Positions 5,103 through 32,221 of a stretch of DNA of 42,118 nt are shown piece after piece; the stretch's first letter is position 1; each line of letters opens with the position of its first letter. The stretch is from Myxococcales bacterium. GTDB taxonomy: Bacteria > Myxococcota_A > Polyangia > Haliangiales > Haliangiaceae. The position numbers and the translations under genes are program-made. The stretch is taken from the NCBI GenBank assembly GCA_016794525.1, contig JAEUJY010000038.1, forward strand, positions 1 through 42,118, in the 5' to 3' direction. A model generated the notes under the pieces. The model did not search any database, was not told where the DNA came from, and saw only the letters and a program-made list of their open reading frames with translations.

Positions 5103-5651
5103 TCACCCGGGCGGCGGCGGCAGCGCCACGACGTGCTGCGCCAGCGGCGGGGGCGGCGTGGCCGCAGCGCGCTCGGCCAGCAGCCGCCGCAGCGCCGCCT
5201 CGTCGCTGGCGCTCAGCGACGTGTGCAGGACCGTGCCGCCGAACCGCGCCAGCTCGGCGTGGAGCCGATCGGGGGTGGCCTGCCGCACCAGCAGGAACAC
5301 CGCCGACGTGCCCGGGTGCATCTCGCGGGCGAGGTCGCGCATGAACCGATCCGAGATGCCGTAGTCGGTCAGCGCGCCGGTCGCCGCGCCAGCGGCGGCG
5401 CCGGCGGCCAGGCCGATCAGCGGGTTCAGCACCAACAGCCCGATCAGCGTGCCCCAGAACGCACCGCCGAGCGCGCCCTGCGCGGTGACGTTGATCGTCT
5501 GGTGCAGGCGGACCGCGCCGTCGTCGGCCTTGGTCACGACCACGGCGTCGTCGAGATCGACCAGGTGCCCGGCGGCCATGGCGCGCGTCGCGCGGAGCAC
5601 GTCGTGGGCGCGGTCAGCGTCGGAGTACACGATGGCGATCAGCTGTGACAT
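5103..5651 (-). CDS. DUF1269 family membrane-associated protein
   Basis: The 182-residue protein starts MSQLIAIVYSDADRAHDVL at ATG 5651, which has a good ribosome site (GAGGAGGT, about 7 bases upstream); an earlier in-frame ATG at 5678 lacks one. The N-terminal alpha/beta part (DLDDAVVVTKADDG) is followed by a glycine-zipper hydrophobic segment (about residues 62-95, LIGLAAGAAAGAATGAL), then TDYGISDRFMRDLAREM and the FLLVR strand. This order is characteristic of DUF1269 (PF06897) proteins, which are often stress-associated and of unknown biochemical role. The gene is convergent with the upstream kinase (3-bp gap) and lies downstream of the RNase gene's terminator, so it is probably a separate transcript. 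Confidence 0.9.
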   Translation of the reverse strand: MSQLIAIVYSDADRAHDVLRATRAMAAGHLVDLDDAVVVTKADDGAVRLHQTINVTAQGALGGAFWGTLIGLLVLNPLIGLAAGAAAGAATGALTDYGISDRFMRDLAREMHPGTSAVFLLVRQATPDRLHAELARFGGTVLHTSLSASDEAALRRLLAERAAATPPPPLAQHVVALPPPPG

Positions 5652-5710
5652 GGGGACCTCCTCGGTGGATGGCGTCACCGTGGGGTCGATCGCACAGGTC
5701 GTCCAGAGCG

Positions 5711-5750
5711 AAAAATCAAAAGCGTCGTGTCGATCCTATCGACACGACGC
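5711..5750 (-). terminator. Rho-independent terminator of the RNase G/E gene
   Basis: A perfect 13-bp stem (GCGTCGTGTCGAT at 5722-5734 and ATCGACACGACGC at 5738-5750) with a 3-base loop is followed, reading the minus strand, by TTTTGATTTTT. It lies 24 bp past the stop of the RNase gene. Confidence 0.88.
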
Positions 5751-5773
5751 CCGATCGCACCGAGGCGGCTCGG

Positions 5774-7468
5774 TCAGCCGCGCCCGCGGCCGCCGCGGCG
5801 GCGCCGCTTGCCGCCGCTGCCACCGCCACCACCACCACCGCCGATCGCGCCGATCGACCGCATCGGCGCCGCGTGGCTCATCGCCGCGGCCTGCTTGGCC
5901 TCCTCGGCGGCGATGTCGGTCGACATCTTGCCGGCGACCCGGAACTGATCCGGCTTCCAGCCCTTCTGCGGCGACACCTCGAGCTTCTTCTGCAGCTTCT
6001 TCTCGAGGCCGTCGAGGTAGTCGCGCTCGCGGGTGCTGAGCAGCTCGGCCACCTTGGGCGAGGCCTCGATCTGCACCTTGTCGTTGTCGACCAACCCGCC
6101 CGAGCGGCGCACCTCGCGCAGCACCTCGTAGGCGACCGTCGTCGTCGACTTCACGACGCCGGCGCCCTCGCAGGTCGGGCACGGCTCGGTGAGCACCTGC
6201 CACAGCGACTCGCGGGTGCGCTTGCGCGTCATCTCGACCAGCCCGAGCTCGCTGATCTTGGTGACGTTGCAGCGGGCGCGGTCCTTCTTGAGCGCCGCCT
6301 GGAAGGTGTCCCACACCTTCTTGCGGTTGCCCTCTTTGTCCATGTCGATGAAGTCGATGACGATGATGCCGCCGATGTTGCGCAGCCGGAGCTGGCGGGC
6401 GACCTCCTCGCACGCCTCGAGGTTGTTGAGCGTGACCGTCTCCTCGAGGTTGTTGTTCGACCCGGTGAAGCTGCCGGTGTTGACGTCGATCGCGGTCAGC
6501 GCCTCGCCCTGATCGATCACCAGCGAGCCGCCCGAGCGCAGCGGCACCTTGCGCGCCACCGCCACCCGCAGCGCGGGCTCGATGTTGAAGTGATCGAAGA
6601 TCGGCCGCCGGCCCTCGTAGCGCTTGATGCGCTCGGCGTAGCGCGGCAGGAACGTCTCGGTGAACCGCTTGATCCGCGTGTACTGCTCCTCGTCGTCGAT
6701 GTGGACCTCGGTGGTGTTCTCCTTCACCAGGTCGCGCACCAAGCGCAGCGGCAGATCGAGCTCGGGGTAGATGAGGCCGGCGCCCTTGACCTGATCCTCG
6801 CGGCGGCCGATCTCGCCCCACACGCGGGTCAGGTACTCGACGTCGTCCTTGATCTCCTGCTCGTCGGTGTCCTCGGCGGCGGTGCGCACGATGAACCCGC
6901 CGTGCTTGGGCCGCGCCTTCTGGATGATGTCGCGCAGCCGCTTGCGCTCCTTGTCGGAGGCGATGCGGCGCGACACGCCGACCTGCCCCACGGCCGGCAT
7001 GTACACGCTGTAGCGCCCGGGCAGCGACAGGTAGCCGGTGACCCGCGCGCCCTTCATCGCGATCGGGTCCTTCACGACCTGGCACATCACCTCGTGGCCG
7101 GGCTTGAGCAGATCTTCGATCTTGCGCGCCGCCAGGCTCTTCTTGGTGCGGGCGATCCGCGACGCCGCGGCCTCGGGGGCCTCGTCGCCGTCCTCGACGT
7201 CGGCGTCCTCGAACAGCTTCTTGCCGTCGTCGCCGCCGAGCACGTCACCGACGAACAGGAACGCCGCGCGCTCGACCTTGGGGCCGAGATCGACGAACGC
7301 CGCCTGCATGCCGGGCAACACGCGCGTGACCTTGCCCCGGTAGATGTTGCCGACCATGCCCCGGTCGCGTTTCCGCTCCACGAACAGCTCGGCGAGCGCG
7401 CCTTCTTCCACCACCGCGACCCGGCACTCCGGACCTTCGGCGTTGACCACCAGAATGTTTTGACCCAT
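5774..7468 (-). CDS. rng: Ribonuclease G/E family endoribonuclease
   Basis: The 564-residue protein begins MGQNILVVNAEG at ATG 7468. An in-frame ATG at 7516 is possible, but the family normally starts near this strand. It has an N-terminal S1-like segment (MVGNIYRGKVTRVLPGMQAA), the RNase H-like/DNase I-like catalytic region with AIDVNTGSF and VIDFIDMD (the catalytic Asp pair that holds magnesium), and the zinc-link cysteines in CPTCEGAGVV. Family members cut single-stranded RNA in rRNA maturation and mRNA decay. The tail ends in a glycine run and KRRRRGGRGRG, a short basic, RNA-binding-like end rather than the long E. coli RNase E scaffold. The gene stands alone, with a long leader and a strong terminator. 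Confidence 0.96.
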   Translation of the reverse strand: MGQNILVVNAEGPECRVAVVEEGALAELFVERKRDRGMVGNIYRGKVTRVLPGMQAAFVDLGPKVERAAFLFVGDVLGGDDGKKLFEDADVEDGDEAPEAAASRIARTKKSLAARKIEDLLKPGHEVMCQVVKDPIAMKGARVTGYLSLPGRYSVYMPAVGQVGVSRRIASDKERKRLRDIIQKARPKHGGFIVRTAAEDTDEQEIKDDVEYLTRVWGEIGRREDQVKGAGLIYPELDLPLRLVRDLVKENTTEVHIDDEEQYTRIKRFTETFLPRYAERIKRYEGRRPIFDHFNIEPALRVAVARKVPLRSGGSLVIDQGEALTAIDVNTGSFTGSNNNLEETVTLNNLEACEEVARQLRLRNIGGIIVIDFIDMDKEGNRKKVWDTFQAALKKDRARCNVTKISELGLVEMTRKRTRESLWQVLTEPCPTCEGAGVVKSTTTVAYEVLREVRRSGGLVDNDKVQIEASPKVAELLSTRERDYLDGLEKKLQKKLEVSPQKGWKPDQFRVAGKMSTDIAAEEAKQAAAMSHAAPMRSIGAIGGGGGGGGSGGKRRRRGGRGRG

Positions 7469-7936
7469 CGAACTCTCTGCGCAAAAACGTTCAACCCAGG
7501 TAGCCGCCCCTGACATGGATGTCTTGGGCAGGTCGCGGCGAAAAGGGCGTTAGGACCCCTGCGGTACCACGCAATGTCCATGAATACAAGGCATTGCGGA
7601 GCGGGTTGCCAACTTGGCGCGGAGTTTGCTCCCTCTTGTGGTCACTATCGGGACAACCTGACGGGGTGCCGCCCAGCAGGTTGCTCTAGCTAGCTTAGTC
7701 TGCGCCTGTCTTCTGCTGTAACCTTCGAATACCTATAGCTTTTCTTGTTGCGCCGGTGCCCTCGGGTCTATCCCCCGAGGGCATTCTGGTTTTCGGCCGG
7801 TTTCGGCCGACGTAGATAGGACATCGGCCGGGGGCGGGGGTTGCTTCTGTCGATAGGTACGCGCTGGGGTACGGTTCGGCCTGCGAAACGCGGCTACGGG
7901 GACAACTTCGTGGCCGGGTCGGGTATTCCTTGCGCC
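7469..7936. other. 468-bp gene-free region between RNase G/E and exporter genes
   Basis: This region has clearly lower GC than its surroundings and no convincing gene. Read on the minus strand it would be the RNase leader; RNase E-type genes in other bacteria are autoregulated through their 5' leader (established for E. coli, inferred here). On the plus strand it contains a 39-codon frame (7574-7693) with five Cys codons and a hairpin at 7757-7783. The in-frame extension of the exporter back to TTG 7841 has poor third-position GC and looks noncoding. A small RNA or leader regulator is possible. Confidence 0.4.
7757..7783 (+). terminator. Hairpin, possible intrinsic terminator or attenuator before the exporter
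   Basis: TGCCCTCGGG and CCCGAGGGCA make a 10-bp stem with a 7-base loop, followed on the plus strand by ATTCTGGTTTT. No plus-strand gene ends here, so if it terminates anything it would be an unannotated RNA or the exporter's own leader. The T tract is interrupted. Confidence 0.3.
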
Positions 7937-9217
7937 GTGAGCGAGCGCCGCGACCCGACCGATCGACCGCGGCGCAGCGCCGACACCGGCCAGCTGCCGC
8001 TGGCCGAGCGCGAGCGTATCGAGAAGAGCCGCGTGCGGTTCGTTTTGGCTCTCGGCCGCGGCCTGCATCGCTACGGCACCCCGGCGCACCGCCTCGAGGA
8101 GGCGCTGGCCGTCGTCTGCGGGCGGCTCGGGCTGCGCGCGCAGATCATGTCGACGCCGACCTCGCTGATGATCGGCTTCGGCGATCCCGCCGACCAGAAG
8201 ACCGCGCTCTTGCGGGTCGACACCGGCGAGCTCGACCTCGGCAAGCTGGCGCAGCTCGACGCGCTGGCCGAGCGCGTGCTGGCCCGCGAGATCGACTCCG
8301 AGGCGGCGCTGGCCCAGATCCAGGCGATCGAGGCCTCGCCCCCGGCGTGGGGCCGCTTCGCCGAGACCGCCACCTACGCGCTCACCGCGGCGTCGATCGC
8401 GGTGTTCTTCGGCGGCGGCTGGCGCGACGTCGCGGCCGGCGCCGGCGTCGGCCTCGCGCTGGGCTTCCTGGCGCTGGCGATGCGCCGCCGCACCCACAGC
8501 CAGCGCGCGGTCGAGCTGGTCGGCGCGTTCGCCGCCGCGTTCGCGGCCAACGCGATCGCCCACGTCGTCCATGGCGTGACGCCGTCGATCGTCACGATCG
8601 CCGCGCTGATCGCGATGCTGCCGGGCATGACGCTCACCACCGCGATGACCGAGCTGGCCACCCGCAACCTGGTGTCGGGCACCGCGCGGATGATGTCGGC
8701 GGTGATCGTCCTGCTCGAGCTGGCGCTGGGCGTCGCGCTCGGCGAGCGGCTGGCCCGCGCGCTGTGGCACGTCGCCGCGGTGACGCCGGTGCCGCTGCCG
8801 GGCTGGAGCGAGTGGGTGGCGTTCGTCGTCGGCACCGTCGGCATGGTGATCGTGTGCCAGGCCGAGAAGCGCGCGCTGCCGTGGATCATGCTGACCTCGC
8901 TGATCGCCTACGCGGCGTCGAACTTCGGCGCCGACCTGCTCGGCCCCGAGCTCGGCGTGCTGATCGGCGCGCTGGCGCTGGGCATCGCCGCCAACCTCTA
9001 CGCCCGCTTCCTCGACCGGCCGCAGCAGGTGGTGCTGGTGCCGGCGGTCATCCTGCTGGTGCCGGGCTCGATGGGCTTCCGCGGCATTTCGTCGCTGCTG
9101 GACCGCAACACGATGACCGGCATCGAGACCACCTTCGCCACGTTCGTCGTCGCGATGGCCATCGTCGCCGGCCTGCTGATCGCCAACGCGCTGGTGTCGC
9201 CGCGCCGGGTGCTCTAG
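7937..9217 (+). CDS. ThrE-type threonine/serine exporter family membrane protein
   Basis: The product is 426 residues from GTG 7937. The N-terminal soluble part contains LHRYGTPAHRLEEAL and later LMIGFGDP, hallmarks of the ThrE/DUF1212 domain, followed by about ten hydrophobic segments in two halves (ThrE then ThrE_2-like: for example TPSIVTIAALIAMLPGMTL and VVLVPAVILLVPGSMGFRG). Such proteins export threonine or serine across the inner membrane; substrate specificity here is inferred only from family. The frame stays open to TTG 7841, but those codons lack the strong G/C third-position bias, so the later start is preferred. The gene lies 46 bp before the histidine kinase gene and may be co-transcribed with it. 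Confidence 0.9.
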   Translation: MSERRDPTDRPRRSADTGQLPLAERERIEKSRVRFVLALGRGLHRYGTPAHRLEEALAVVCGRLGLRAQIMSTPTSLMIGFGDPADQKTALLRVDTGELDLGKLAQLDALAERVLAREIDSEAALAQIQAIEASPPAWGRFAETATYALTAASIAVFFGGGWRDVAAGAGVGLALGFLALAMRRRTHSQRAVELVGAFAAAFAANAIAHVVHGVTPSIVTIAALIAMLPGMTLTTAMTELATRNLVSGTARMMSAVIVLLELALGVALGERLARALWHVAAVTPVPLPGWSEWVAFVVGTVGMVIVCQAEKRALPWIMLTSLIAYAASNFGADLLGPELGVLIGALALGIAANLYARFLDRPQQVVLVPAVILLVPGSMGFRGISSLLDRNTMTGIETTFATFVVAMAIVAGLLIANALVSPRRVL

Positions 9218-9263
9218 GCCTCGCAGGAACGCCCCGACGGTCGATCTCGATCCTCGGCCGCTC

Positions 9264-11195
<1,932 letters not shown>

Positions 11196-11204
11196 GCCGC
11201 GCCA

Positions 11205-11239
11205 GCGATGTCGCGGTCGGCGGCGGCGCCCGACATCGC
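11205..11239 (+). promoter_or_regulatory. 9-bp inverted repeat after the histidine kinase gene
   Basis: GCGATGTCG (11205-11213) and CGACATCGC (11231-11239) are perfect inverted repeats separated by 17 bases, just past the kinase stop. There is no T tract, so it is a weak terminator candidate. It may instead be a binding site for the next gene. Confidence 0.25.
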
Positions 11240-11353
11240 CGTCAGGCGGCTGTGGCGCAGACGCGACAGTCGGCGGGCCCCGATCGGCCCGCGCCGTGCG
11301 ATCCTGGCGATCCTCGCCGGCACGACCGTTGCTGTACGGCCAGCCACCTCCCG

Positions 11354-12007
11354 ATGCGCTACCTCGCCGCTCTGTCCCTGACCGCCGCCTGCGCCGCGCC
11401 CCCGATGGGGCTCGGCACCGGCGCCCGCACGCCCGCCGCCGTCGGCCACAACGTCATCGAGGGGCGCACCGGCATGGCCGCGGCCTCGGGGCGCCAGGCC
11501 TTCCAGGCCGACGTGTCGGCGCGCTTCCAGGTCGCCCGCGTGTTCGCCATGGAGAGCGGGATCGCGGTGACGCGCGTGCAACAAGCCGGCGCCGACGGCG
11601 ACCAGGTGAACCTGACCGGCGGCTTCCCCTACCTGCGACCGCGGTTCCAGGTCGACCGCGTGTCGCTGGCGATCGCGCTGGCCGGCCTCGGCATGGGCGG
11701 CGGCGGCGGCGGCATCATCGGCGGCATCGCCGACGCGCAGCTCGGCTACGGCACCGCCGCGTGGTCGGTCTACGTCGGCGCCTACGCGCAGAGCTTCGAG
11801 ATCGTCTCGGAGTCGCCGATCGACACCTCGGCGCGCCAGGTGCGGCTCGGCGGCGAGTACGCGTGGGCGATGGGCGCGTCGCGGTTCGGCGTCGCGGTCG
11901 AGCTGTACCGCCAGCGCGAGGCGCTGCGCAACGGCGACGATCAGGCCGACACCGACGGCTTCGCCGGCGGCGTGAAGCTGTCGATCACCTCGCCGGAGTT
12001 CCGGTGA
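11354..12007 (+). CDS. Predicted outer-membrane-type lipoprotein, unknown function
   Basis: The 217-residue product starts MRYLAALSLTAACAAPP, with a lipobox-like TAAC. The mature part has many short alternating strands rich in Gly and aromatic residues (GFPYLRPRFQVDR, WSVYVGAYAQSFEI, RFGVAVELYRQ), which look like a beta-barrel or porin-like fold. A glycine run (GMGGGGGGIIGG) sits near the middle. No family is recognised. The stop overlaps the GTG start of the next gene (12004-12007), so the two are probably translationally coupled and work together. The start at ATG 11354 is set by the signal peptide; the frame is open further upstream but that part overlaps the kinase in another frame. Confidence 0.8.
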   Translation: MRYLAALSLTAACAAPPMGLGTGARTPAAVGHNVIEGRTGMAAASGRQAFQADVSARFQVARVFAMESGIAVTRVQQAGADGDQVNLTGGFPYLRPRFQVDRVSLAIALAGLGMGGGGGGIIGGIADAQLGYGTAAWSVYVGAYAQSFEIVSESPIDTSARQVRLGGEYAWAMGASRFGVAVELYRQREALRNGDDQADTDGFAGGVKLSITSPEFR

Positions 12008-12534
12008 GCGCGCGCGGCCTCGCGCTCGGCGCGCTGGCGCTCGGCGCGTGCGTCATCCCGCCCAGCCAGTCGGCGGTGGGCACGATCGTCACCGCCGACG
12101 GCGTCGGCACCCGGGCGTCGATCGGCGCCCACGCCAGCGCGCTCGACGATCGCGGCGCGACACCGATCGATCTCGGCGCCGGCTGGGCCGGCGAGTCGGT
12201 CGACGGGCGCGGCACCGCCCACGCGACCTACGTCGCGGTGGCGCGGCGGATCACCGGGCCGCTGTGGCTGGGAGGGCGCGCCGAGCTGTTCTGGAACGTC
12301 GACGGCGATCAGCCGCGGCGCGGGCTGATGGCCCGGGCCGCGCTGCGCCAGCAGCTCGCCGGCGTGCGCTGGGGATCGGGCGACGGCGGCGGCGCGCTCG
12401 GCGTGCTGGGCGCGCTGGCCACCGGCGCGTACCTCGACGTCGGCGGTCGCCAGCTCGCGAGCGGCGGCGCCGAGATCGTCGCCGCCGCCGGCGTGTCGCT
12501 GGACCTGCCGGCGATCGCGGGCGTGTCGAAGTAG
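12004..12534 (+). CDS. Small lipoprotein coupled to the preceding outer-membrane-type protein
   Basis: The 176-residue product begins with GTG 12004, overlapping the previous stop by 4 bases (GTGA). The signal sequence MSARGLALGALALGACVIPP has a clear lipobox (LGAC). The rest has amphipathic strand patterns (HATYVAVARRITGPLWLGGRAELFW) like the C-terminal strands of small outer-membrane beta-barrels. No known family was recognised. The overlap with the upstream gene and similar character suggest paralogous or partner surface proteins. Confidence 0.78.
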   Translation: MSARGLALGALALGACVIPPSQSAVGTIVTADGVGTRASIGAHASALDDRGATPIDLGAGWAGESVDGRGTAHATYVAVARRITGPLWLGGRAELFWNVDGDQPRRGLMARAALRQQLAGVRWGSGDGGGALGVLGALATGAYLDVGGRQLASGGAEIVAAAGVSLDLPAIAGVSK

Positions 12535-12659
12535 GCGACGCGGCGCGCCAGCGCGACTCTGACATCGCGGTCGCGATCGCTGCCGGCCACGGGCGCCGAC
12601 GACCAACCCAAGCGCGCGAGATCGCATCCGGGCACGCGCCTCGCATGGGGCCGCGGACC

Positions 12660-13268
12660 ATGGCCTCTACCCGGACGATCCTCGGAGCGCTCTTCGCTGG
12701 TTCGTTGTTTGCCACCGCCGCCTGCGGCGACGATCCGGCGCCGCTCGTCGGCAGCTGGCGCGCGCACGCCAACGCGCTCGACGCCGGCGCGTTGCCGGAG
12801 GCCGATCGCCAGGTGCTGACCTTCCGCGCCGACGGCTCGGTGGTCGCGAACGGCTCCGCACCCGGCACGTACACCGTCGACGGTGATCGGCTCACGCTGG
12901 TGACCCCGCGGCAGGACGCGCCCGCCGACGCGTGGACCACGACGTACTACGCGAGCGACACCCACCTCGTGCTCGACGTGATGACCAGCGCCGACGCCGG
13001 CGACGGCGTGATCGGCACGTGGCAAGGCGCGCGCGTCGTGAACGGCGCGCCGATCGACACCACGGTGACGCTGCGCGCCGATCACTCCGGGCGCTACGAG
13101 AGCCACGATCGCGCGAGCGGCGGCGGCATCGCGATCGAGGCCACGTGGCAGCAACAGGGCGACGACCTCGCCGTGACCGCGACGATCAGCCCCGATCAGC
13201 TGCTGAGCTTCTACGCGACCCGGGTCGACGGCGTCCTCGGCAGCCCGTACGAACGCCTCGCGCCGTGA
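12660..13268 (+). CDS. Lipoprotein with two lipocalin-like repeats
   Basis: The 202-residue product from ATG 12660 begins MASTRTILGALFAGSLFATAACGDD with lipobox TAAC; an ATG 15 bases earlier is an alternative start. Two similar halves are visible. The first has VGSWRA..., LTFRADGSV and YTVDGDRLTLV. The second has IGTWQG..., VTLRADHSGRYES and WQQQGDDLAV. This 'GTW..., F-DG, G-Y, GD-L-' pattern is that of lipocalin-like/DUF domains that fold as small barrels. The ligand is unknown. The gene is convergent with the minus-strand cytochrome gene (1-bp gap between stops). Confidence 0.82.
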   Translation: MASTRTILGALFAGSLFATAACGDDPAPLVGSWRAHANALDAGALPEADRQVLTFRADGSVVANGSAPGTYTVDGDRLTLVTPRQDAPADAWTTTYYASDTHLVLDVMTSADAGDGVIGTWQGARVVNGAPIDTTVTLRADHSGRYESHDRASGGGIAIEATWQQQGDDLAVTATISPDQLLSFYATRVDGVLGSPYERLAP

Positions 13269-27423: not shown

Positions 27424-27837
27424 CTACTCGCCGATCGGATCGGGGCCGCGGTCGATGCCGGGATCGGACCAGGTGCGCACGCCGAGCAGGCGGGCGCACT
27501 CGTCGACGATGTCGGCGGCGGTGCACGGCTTGGGGATGAAGGCGGCGGCGCCGAGGTGGGCCGACAGCTCGGGGCCGCGCAGCGACGACGAGACCAGGAT
27601 CAGCGGCGGCGGCTCGGGCAGGCGGTCGAGCGCGGTGACCAGCTCGCGGCCCTCGTGCTCGCGGTCGCTGGCGTCGAAGACGATCGCGTCGAGGCCGCCC
27701 TCGCGGGCGTGGCCGATGCCGACGGCGATCGACGCGGCGGCGATCACCGCGTGGCGCTCGGCCTCGAGCGCGCCGGCCCACGCACCGCGCGCGGTCGCGT
27801 CGGCAGTGATGATCAGCACGGTCGCCTGGTGACTCAT
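27424..27837 (-). CDS. Receiver-like (REC) single-domain protein
   Basis: The 137-residue protein has the receiver fold order: VLIITADATARGAWAGALEA (only one of the usual two acidic residues), IVFDASDREHEG with the phospho-acceptor-like Asp, LILVSSSL with the Ser/Thr switch, and AAFIPKPCTA with the conserved Lys. The weakened acidic pocket suggests a degenerate receiver or a phosphorylation-independent one. Its ATG (27837) overlaps the stop of the upstream TPR frame (ATGA), so it is translationally coupled to the kinase/ATPase gene. Confidence 0.82.
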   Translation of the reverse strand: MSHQATVLIITADATARGAWAGALEAERHAVIAAASIAVGIGHAREGGLDAIVFDASDREHEGRELVTALDRLPEPPPLILVSSSLRGPELSAHLGAAAFIPKPCTAADIVDECARLLGVRTWSDPGIDRGPDPIGE

Positions 27838-28139
27838 CGCTCGGCAGCAGTAGCGCGGGACTCCCCCTCCGTCCACCCGACTTCGCGCGCGAGCTCGCGC
27901 GCCTCCTTCAGCACCTCGGGCGCGATCTTCATCAGCGTGCGCCCCGGGCTGGCGCCGTAGAGCAGGAGCTCGGCGGTGCCGCGGCGATCGCCGAGCTTGC
28001 GCATCTCCTCGACGGCGCCGCGGCGATGACGCTCGGCGAGGATGTGGTTGCCGAGCTTCTCGTAGGCGGTCGCGAGCAACGCGCGCGCGCGCGCGCTGCC
28101 GGCGGCCGAGCCGGCGCGCTGGGCCTGGGCCAGCGCCAC
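27834..28139 (-). CDS. C-terminal TPR part of the kinase, separated by an in-frame TAG
   Basis: From GTG 28139 this gives 101 residues, VALAQAQRAGSAAGSARARA to the end, which includes LLATAYEKLGNHILAERHRRG, a TPR helix pair. The frame is identical to that of the kinase gene upstream: only the TAG at 28149-28151 separates ...GDMSRCA from HAEVALAQAQRA, and together they read as one continuous TPR repeat. It is therefore either the broken end of one 1020-residue protein or a separately translated piece. A (GC)8 run lies at 28081-28096. Confidence 0.55.
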   Translation of the reverse strand: MALAQAQRAGSAAGSARARALLATAYEKLGNHILAERHRRGAVEEMRKLGDRRGTAELLLYGASPGRTLMKIAPEVLKEARELAREVGWTEGESRATAAER

Positions 28140-28148
28140 CTCGGCGTG

Positions 28149-30878
28149 CTAGGCGCAGCGGCTCATGTCGCCGTCGGCGGCGGCCAGCTGCGCCAGCTTG
28201 AGCACCAGCTTCCACATGTTGAGCGGCGCGCGCGGCGATCGCGGGCCGTCGCCCAGCGTCATCAGGTCGATCGCCTCCTCGAGCTCGCGCGCCGCGGCCG
28301 GGCTCTTGCCGGTGCGGATCAACACCGACGCGAGGTCGAGGTAGCTGTCGGCGATCAGCGCGCTGTCGCCGGTGGCGATCGCCGCGCCGATCGCGCGCTG
28401 CAGGTACGGCACGCCGGCGGCGGGATCGCGCTCGGTGGCGACCAGCTGGCCGAGCGCGCGCACCAGCAGCGCCTGGAGCCGCGGCCCTTGATCGCCCCAG
28501 CTCTCGGCCTCGTGCAGGATGCCGCGGGCGAGCGCCAGCTCGCCGGTGGTGCGCAGCAGCTCGGCGAGGCGGATCGAGATCGCGACCAGCTCGGCCGGCT
28601 CGAGCTCGCCGCCGGAGATCGCCGCGCGCGCGCACACCAGCGCCTGCGTGTAGCAACGCGCGGCCCCGACGTCGTCGAGCTGGCGGCTGGCGGCGTCGCC
28701 GGCCTCGGCGTACAGCGCCGCGGCCTCGGCGCGCAGCCCCGCGGCGTCGGTGTGGTGCGCCGCCAGCGCCGGCGGCGCGTCGGCGCCCAGCGTCTGCCGC
28801 GCGTACTCGTGCAGGTCGCGCCGCACCGACGCCGGGATCGCGCCGTAGGTGACGTCGCGGACGAAGTTGCTGGCGAAGCTCACGGCGTCGCCGCTGGCGT
28901 GCAGCCAGCCGCGCTCGACCGCCAGCCCCAGCGCCGCGTCGAAGGCGTCGCCCAGGCCGGACGCCTCGGCCACCTGCGCCAGCGCGGCCTCGCGGCCGAA
29001 CACCGCCACCGCCTGGCACACCCGCAGCGGATCGCGCGGCAGCGTCGCCAGCCGGGCGGCGATCAGGTCGGGCAGCGAGGTCGCGGCCTGCTCGATCGTG
29101 CCGCCCTCGGTGATGAACCGCACCAACTGCTCGACGTGGGCCGGCACGCCGGCGGTCAGCTCGGTCAGCTGCAGCGCGGTCAGCTCGCCGACCGCGCCGC
29201 CGCGGTTGAGCTGGGTGGCGAAGAAGCCCAGCGCCTCGCCGTCGAGCGCGTCGAGCTGGACCCGCAGGCAGTCGGCCGGCCAGGTCCGCGCCTCGGCCGG
29301 GGTCAGCGTCACGACGAGGCGCACGCCGCTGGAGTTGCGCTCGACGACCCGCCGCACCAGATCGACGCTGGCGCGATCGTAGCGATCGAGGTCCTCGAAC
29401 ACGACCGCGGTCGGCCCCCGGGTGGCCTCGGCGGCGAACGCCCGCACCACCGACGCGAACAGCTCGCGGCGCCGCACCGGCGGGTCGAGCTCGGCCAGCT
29501 CGCTGAGGTTGCCGAACAGCTCCGACAGCCCCGGCACGTCGCGCTCGCCGAGGCCGCGCGCCACCGCCGCGGCGCTCAGCTCGTCCTTGCCGCACACCGG
29601 CGGCAGCTCGAGCATCGTCGCGATCAGCGCGCGCAGCGGGTACAGCGGCGCCGGCAGCGGCGCGGGATCCGGATCGGCCTGGTAGATCGTCACGCCGGCG
29701 GCGTCGGCGACCCGCTCGTAGGCCTCGCGCAGGAGCGCGGTCTTGCCACTGCCGGCGTCGCCGATCACCAGCAGCGCCGGCGCGATCGCGCGCCCCGACA
29801 GGAAGTCCATCACGCGGTCGAGCTCGTCGTCGCGTCCGACCAGCGCCAGCGGCCAGGTCTGGCTGACCCGCACCTCCGACAGCCCGCCGCCGGTGGCCGC
29901 CATCTCGGCGGTGGTCGACATCGCCCGCCGCGGCTGTCCGCATTCCGGACAGAACCGGAACTCGGCGGCGGCCTGCGCGCCGCACGCCGAGCAGACGTAG
30001 CCGGTCGACGAGCGGGCCGGGGTCAACAGCGCGGCGATCGCCGCCCGCATCGCCGCGGCGTCGGTGAACCGGTCGCCCGGGCGCTTGGCCAGCGCGGTCA
30101 TCACCAGCTCGTCGATGGCCGGCGCGACCGCCACCACCTTGCCCGGCGGCCGCGGCTCGAGCTTGAGCTGCCGGCTGAGGATGTCGATCGCCGAGCCGCC
30201 GACGAACGGCGTCTGCCCGGTGAGCATCTCGTACGCCACGATACCGACGGCGTAGAGGTCGGTGGCGACGCTCGGCGGCGCGCCGCCGATCAGCTCGGGC
30301 GCCATGTACTCCGGGGTGCCGCTGATGCTGCGGTCCTCGCCCTCGCGCGGCGCGTTGACCAGCCGCGCGATGCCGAAGTCGACCACCTTCACCGTGTCCT
30401 GGCCGGTGCGGCGCTGCTCGACGATGATGTTGTCGCTCTTCAGGTCGGCGTGGATCACGCCGGCGAGGTGCGCCTCCTCGACGCCGGCCAGGATCTGGTC
30501 GACGATCGCCAGCACCCGCGCCGGCGGCAGCGGGTGCTCCTTGGCGATCAGGTGGGTCAAGGTCGGCCCGCGCAGGTACTCCATCACCAGGTACAGCAGG
30601 CCGTCGCTGGTCTGCCCGTAGTCGATGATCGACACGGTGTTGGGGTGGTTGAGGCGGCTGGCGGCCAGCGCCTCGTCCTGGAACCGCTTCACCAGCCGGG
30701 CGTCGCGGGTCAGATCGTCGTTCAGGATCTTCACCGCCACGGTGCGACCCAGCGTGATCTGATCGGCCTTGTACACCGCGCCCGAGCCGCCGATGCCGAT
30801 GCACCCGCGCAGCCGGTACTTGTCGTCCAGCACGCGGCCGACGAGGCGTTGCGCGTGGGCCTGTTCGTCGGTGGACAT
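28149..30878 (-). CDS. Ser/Thr kinase - zinc ribbon - ATPase - TPR regulator (truncated by in-frame stop)
   Basis: The product is 909 residues from ATG 30878 (MSTDEQAHAQRLVG). The kinase domain (about 20-285) has the glycine loop GIGGSGAVYK, VAVKILN lysine, HADLKSDNIIV (HAD instead of HRD, so a non-RD kinase), VVDFGIARL and GTPEYMAPE. A zinc ribbon (about 294-318) has CSACG and CPECG pairs. An AAA-type/STAND ATPase follows with Walker A GDAGSGKT (about 372-380) and Walker B VVFEDLDRYD. The C terminus is helical and TPR-like, ending abruptly at TAG 28149 while the same frame continues a TPR. This layout resembles MalT/adenylate-cyclase-type signalling ATPases fused to kinases. It is coupled to a receiver gene through the downstream fragment. 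Confidence 0.9.
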   Translation of the reverse strand: MSTDEQAHAQRLVGRVLDDKYRLRGCIGIGGSGAVYKADQITLGRTVAVKILNDDLTRDARLVKRFQDEALAASRLNHPNTVSIIDYGQTSDGLLYLVMEYLRGPTLTHLIAKEHPLPPARVLAIVDQILAGVEEAHLAGVIHADLKSDNIIVEQRRTGQDTVKVVDFGIARLVNAPREGEDRSISGTPEYMAPELIGGAPPSVATDLYAVGIVAYEMLTGQTPFVGGSAIDILSRQLKLEPRPPGKVVAVAPAIDELVMTALAKRPGDRFTDAAAMRAAIAALLTPARSSTGYVCSACGAQAAAEFRFCPECGQPRRAMSTTAEMAATGGGLSEVRVSQTWPLALVGRDDELDRVMDFLSGRAIAPALLVIGDAGSGKTALLREAYERVADAAGVTIYQADPDPAPLPAPLYPLRALIATMLELPPVCGKDELSAAAVARGLGERDVPGLSELFGNLSELAELDPPVRRRELFASVVRAFAAEATRGPTAVVFEDLDRYDRASVDLVRRVVERNSSGVRLVVTLTPAEARTWPADCLRVQLDALDGEALGFFATQLNRGGAVGELTALQLTELTAGVPAHVEQLVRFITEGGTIEQAATSLPDLIAARLATLPRDPLRVCQAVAVFGREAALAQVAEASGLGDAFDAALGLAVERGWLHASGDAVSFASNFVRDVTYGAIPASVRRDLHEYARQTLGADAPPALAAHHTDAAGLRAEAAALYAEAGDAASRQLDDVGAARCYTQALVCARAAISGGELEPAELVAISIRLAELLRTTGELALARGILHEAESWGDQGPRLQALLVRALGQLVATERDPAAGVPYLQRAIGAAIATGDSALIADSYLDLASVLIRTGKSPAAARELEEAIDLMTLGDGPRSPRAPLNMWKLVLKLAQLAAADGDMSRCA

Positions 30879-31015
30879 CGCGGGTAGGGGCCCAGCATAC
30901 CCCACCGCTGCCCGACGATGACAGGCACCGCGGCAACCTCACCCCGCCGGCGCGACTGGTCGGACCGCGGGCCACGCCCGCCGGCTCAGACCCAGATAGC
31001 CTCGCTGGCGCTCGG

Positions 31016-32221
<1,206 letters not shown>

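Follow-up and report, generated by a model that had tools for sequence, protein, structure and literature searches.

The window analysed here, a 42,118-nt stretch of DNA from a Myxococcales bacterium, exhibits a protein kinase gene whose reading frame is closed by a TAG and then resumes in the same frame. Is this one interrupted gene, two coupled genes, or a single gene read through its stop codon? The 909-codon frame starts at an ATG (30876-30878, minus strand). Past the TAG, it runs on as HAEVALAQAQRAGSAAG... for 104 codons up to a TGA, which overlaps the ATG (27835-27837) of a receiver-like gene as ATGA (Table 1). The original prediction described exactly this arrangement, a 909-residue kinase closed by TAG, a resumed frame and the ATGA overlap, and the given sequence bears it out. 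Its estimate of ~1010 residues for the protein with TAG read as sense is close to the about 1014 aa obtained here. An upstream GTG (30903-30905) leads to an ORF of 918 codons; homologues start at or beside the ATG at 30878. On the plus strand, antisense to the kinase gene, lies an open frame of 953 codons (28026-30887). It is an expected by-product of the high GC content of the kinase frame, and carries no evidence of being a gene.

Table 1. Features of the interrupted kinase locus, in window coordinates.
Feature	Position	Strand	Content and evidence
First 909 codons of the kinase gene	28152..30878	-	Kinase, zinc-ribbon-like stretch, AAA_16 and TPR up to the TAG; Pfam, homologues
In-frame TAG	28149..28151	-	All relatives have a sense codon at the homologous column, the closest one GAG
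Final 104 codons of the kinase gene	27837..28148	-	Terminal TPR and conserved C-terminal motifs; conserved as upstream
Original TGA stop	27834..27836	-	ATGA overlap with the receiver gene start; same overlap in the sister species
Receiver-like gene (137 aa)	27424..27837	-	Directly downstream, syntenic in relatives; tblastn, NCBIfam

Domains were assigned on the read-through protein, with the TAG taken as a residue. Pfam searches identified a Ser/Thr protein kinase domain (PF00069, residues 23-275, E-value = 2e-47) and an AAA_16 ATPase domain (PF13191, residues 346-523, E-value = 7.6e-18), with a zinc-ribbon-like stretch between them (residues 296-316, weak match to PF13240). A TPR region follows and runs to the TAG, its PF13424 match being weak and below the cut-off. 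Beyond the TAG, the protein exhibits the conserved C-terminal motifs GDRRGTAELLL and EARELAREVGW. We rejected an assignment to the PASTA-domain kinases (NF033483), the score being 296 bits against a cut-off of 450 with a match over the kinase part only. Kinase, AAA_16 and TPR C-terminus together place the gene in a kinase/AAA_16/TPR family of Myxococcota, of which full-length homologues are found across the order at 38-76% identity.

The window genome is a draft (9.8 Mb, 177 contigs, 97% complete), and the named relatives nearest to it in the collections are MAG-labelled assemblies from Kofleriaceae and other Myxococcales. With the read-through protein as query, most genomes of the family yielded full-length uninterrupted homologues. 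Where these relatives have about 1010-1040 codons without a break, the window gene is interrupted, being the only one among the matches listed to carry an internal stop (one TAG, against none in the relatives). When the order was searched with the last 235 residues, the window was again the sole stop-bearing match among those listed. At the TAG column, each of the 29 homologues from the same order that span the site has a sense codon (R in 16, E in 6, Q in 3, K and A in 2 each). The same holds, with the frame uninterrupted, for 33 of 33 homologue rows in a wider set that shares some genomes with the former. The closest relative, of the same genus and about 75% identical, has GAG at this column within a 1016-aa ORF that likewise overlaps its receiver gene as ATGA. 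Therefore the ancestral gene extended to the ATGA junction. No second strain of the species was found in the collections searched.

The 104 residues past the TAG align without gap across the stop with the C-termini of full-length homologues (14 full-length relatives aligned), and their codon usage is coding-like. The open frame is thus not a chance product of a GC-rich sequence. Conservation past the stop is undiminished. Compared with the sister species, the 104 codons exhibit 73% identity and a dN/dS of 0.35, against 75% and 0.42 for all codons before the TAG, and 73% and 0.42 for the 103 codons directly before it. Lineage-specific amino acid replacements (window versus sister) number 7 versus 10 downstream and 59 versus 71 upstream of the stop (Fisher p = 0.80). 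Of the downstream columns, 22 do not vary among 14 other family members, and the window keeps every one of them. The segment being undecayed and conserved like its upstream counterpart, we infer that the stop is very recent in this lineage, or false; the relaxation test is of modest power given so short a segment, leaving room for a stop of moderate age.

These observations converge on a single gene for a full-length kinase/ATPase/TPR signalling protein, in which one codon reads TAG, either because a nonsense substitution occurred very recently or because the assembled base is wrong or that of a minority. We put the probability of this reading at about 0.94. The lesion would be confined to a single codon, arising either from a recent nonsense substitution or from a base-call, consensus, assembly or strain-mixture error. 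The original prediction had named a nonsense mutation and a sequence error among its options, and had proposed a sense codon in homologues as the check. Every homologue covering the site has one (E, Q, R, K, A and others), which supports the two options jointly. Homologues ending at residue 909 would have spoken against them; all those covering the site continue past this point without a stop.

If the TAG is real, translation would end after residue 909. Kinase and ATPase would be retained in the product, along with most TPRs, while the terminal TPR and both C-terminal motifs would be lost. The receiver gene would probably be translated less as well, because ribosomes would not reach the ATGA overlap. 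The receiver gene itself exhibits weak NCBIfam response-regulator matches, and was found by tblastn in the flanks of nine relatives at 38-58% identity. On the other side of the kinase gene, a thiolase gene (31016-32221, minus strand) occupies a position conserved in several relatives.

The window TAG appears to stand alone in the part of its genome that was scanned. In-frame stops flanked on both sides by coding-like sequence were sought in 0.44 Mb of the window genome, and 13 sites were listed, the window site among them. The other 12, judged by eye from their translations, resemble ordinary junctions of different genes, such as those of ribosomal proteins S13/S11, and no second case like the window TAG was found in the 0.44 Mb scanned. 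Since the same scan of the sister genome also listed 13 sites (in 0.38 Mb), there is no excess of interrupted genes, and a poor assembly with many such genes was ruled out. Recoding as a genome-wide pattern gives no sign of itself.

Two other explanations were weighed, both of them options of the original prediction. One is gene fission, with two coupled polypeptides and reinitiation at a GTG (28137-28139) shortly after the TAG. This GTG, 9 bases past the stop, does start a 101-aa ORF, but no ATG start lies nearby, and a clear ribosome-binding site was not seen by eye. Moreover, the cut falls inside the TPR region, and a natural split at this position was found in none of the homologues examined. 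The other in-frame junctions of the genome lead into a recognisably new protein, whereas here a TPR carries on. A real gene boundary at the TAG is accordingly very improbable.

The other is that the TAG is read through, in a programmed or tolerated manner, so that the 909-aa protein and the full-length one are both made. A fully conserved downstream segment with its frame kept is what such a mechanism would leave, but this conservation is more simply explained by a very recent origin of the stop or by a base error. No relative exhibits a stop at the site, all having a sense codon there. No tRNA gene was found within the window, and none with a CUA anticodon among the tRNA genes of the genome (RF00005 finds read with ARAGORN, in a 97% complete draft with one unreadable tRNA-like gene). 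The genome encodes release factor RF1 (515.9 bits against a cut-off of 423.25), and TAG terminates a quarter of the long coding-like ORFs sampled (37 of 147, with 43 of 136 for the sister genome). A change of the genetic code is ruled out by these same data. An RNA element after the stop was also rejected, the 100 nt that follow folding no better than shuffled sequences (z = -0.75). With the TAG unconserved, no natural split, no CUA tRNA found and RF1 present, readthrough is as poorly favoured as a gene boundary. Still less probable is a readthrough of regulated rate, which would switch between short and full-length kinase and tune the coupled receiver gene.

The tRNA search also returned a tRNA-like gene that is degenerate and whose anticodon could not be read (C77:1-2500, positions 965-1036). 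Near it lies a short release-factor-like ORF (C77:3727-4161, a 222-aa open frame, 158 bits with the RF1 model). Elsewhere in the same genome, 27 tRNA genes are densely packed on one strand (C7:35000-54999, positions 5243-13037); this array spans most amino acids and duplicates the dispersed tRNA set. Dense tRNA arrays are often located on mobile elements.

The main bearing of the single-gene reading is on annotation: the two ORFs are best entered as a single interrupted gene. The TAG site gives no sign of recoding in the lineage, and we found nothing in the literature that bears on it. In its domain order (PF00069, PF13191, TPR), the protein is the same as the Myxococcota proteins combining a Hanks-type Ser/Thr kinase, a STAND/AAA_16 ATPase and TPRs; it differs from that family in the TAG within the TPR region, which is peculiar to this assembly. 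Mycobacterium PknK, a kinase with a MalT-like region, is a looser analogue. We found no difference between this locus and an ordinary single-substitution pseudogene or a draft-genome base error, in which a frame otherwise intact and conserved likewise has a single lineage-specific stop. The event is an ordinary one.
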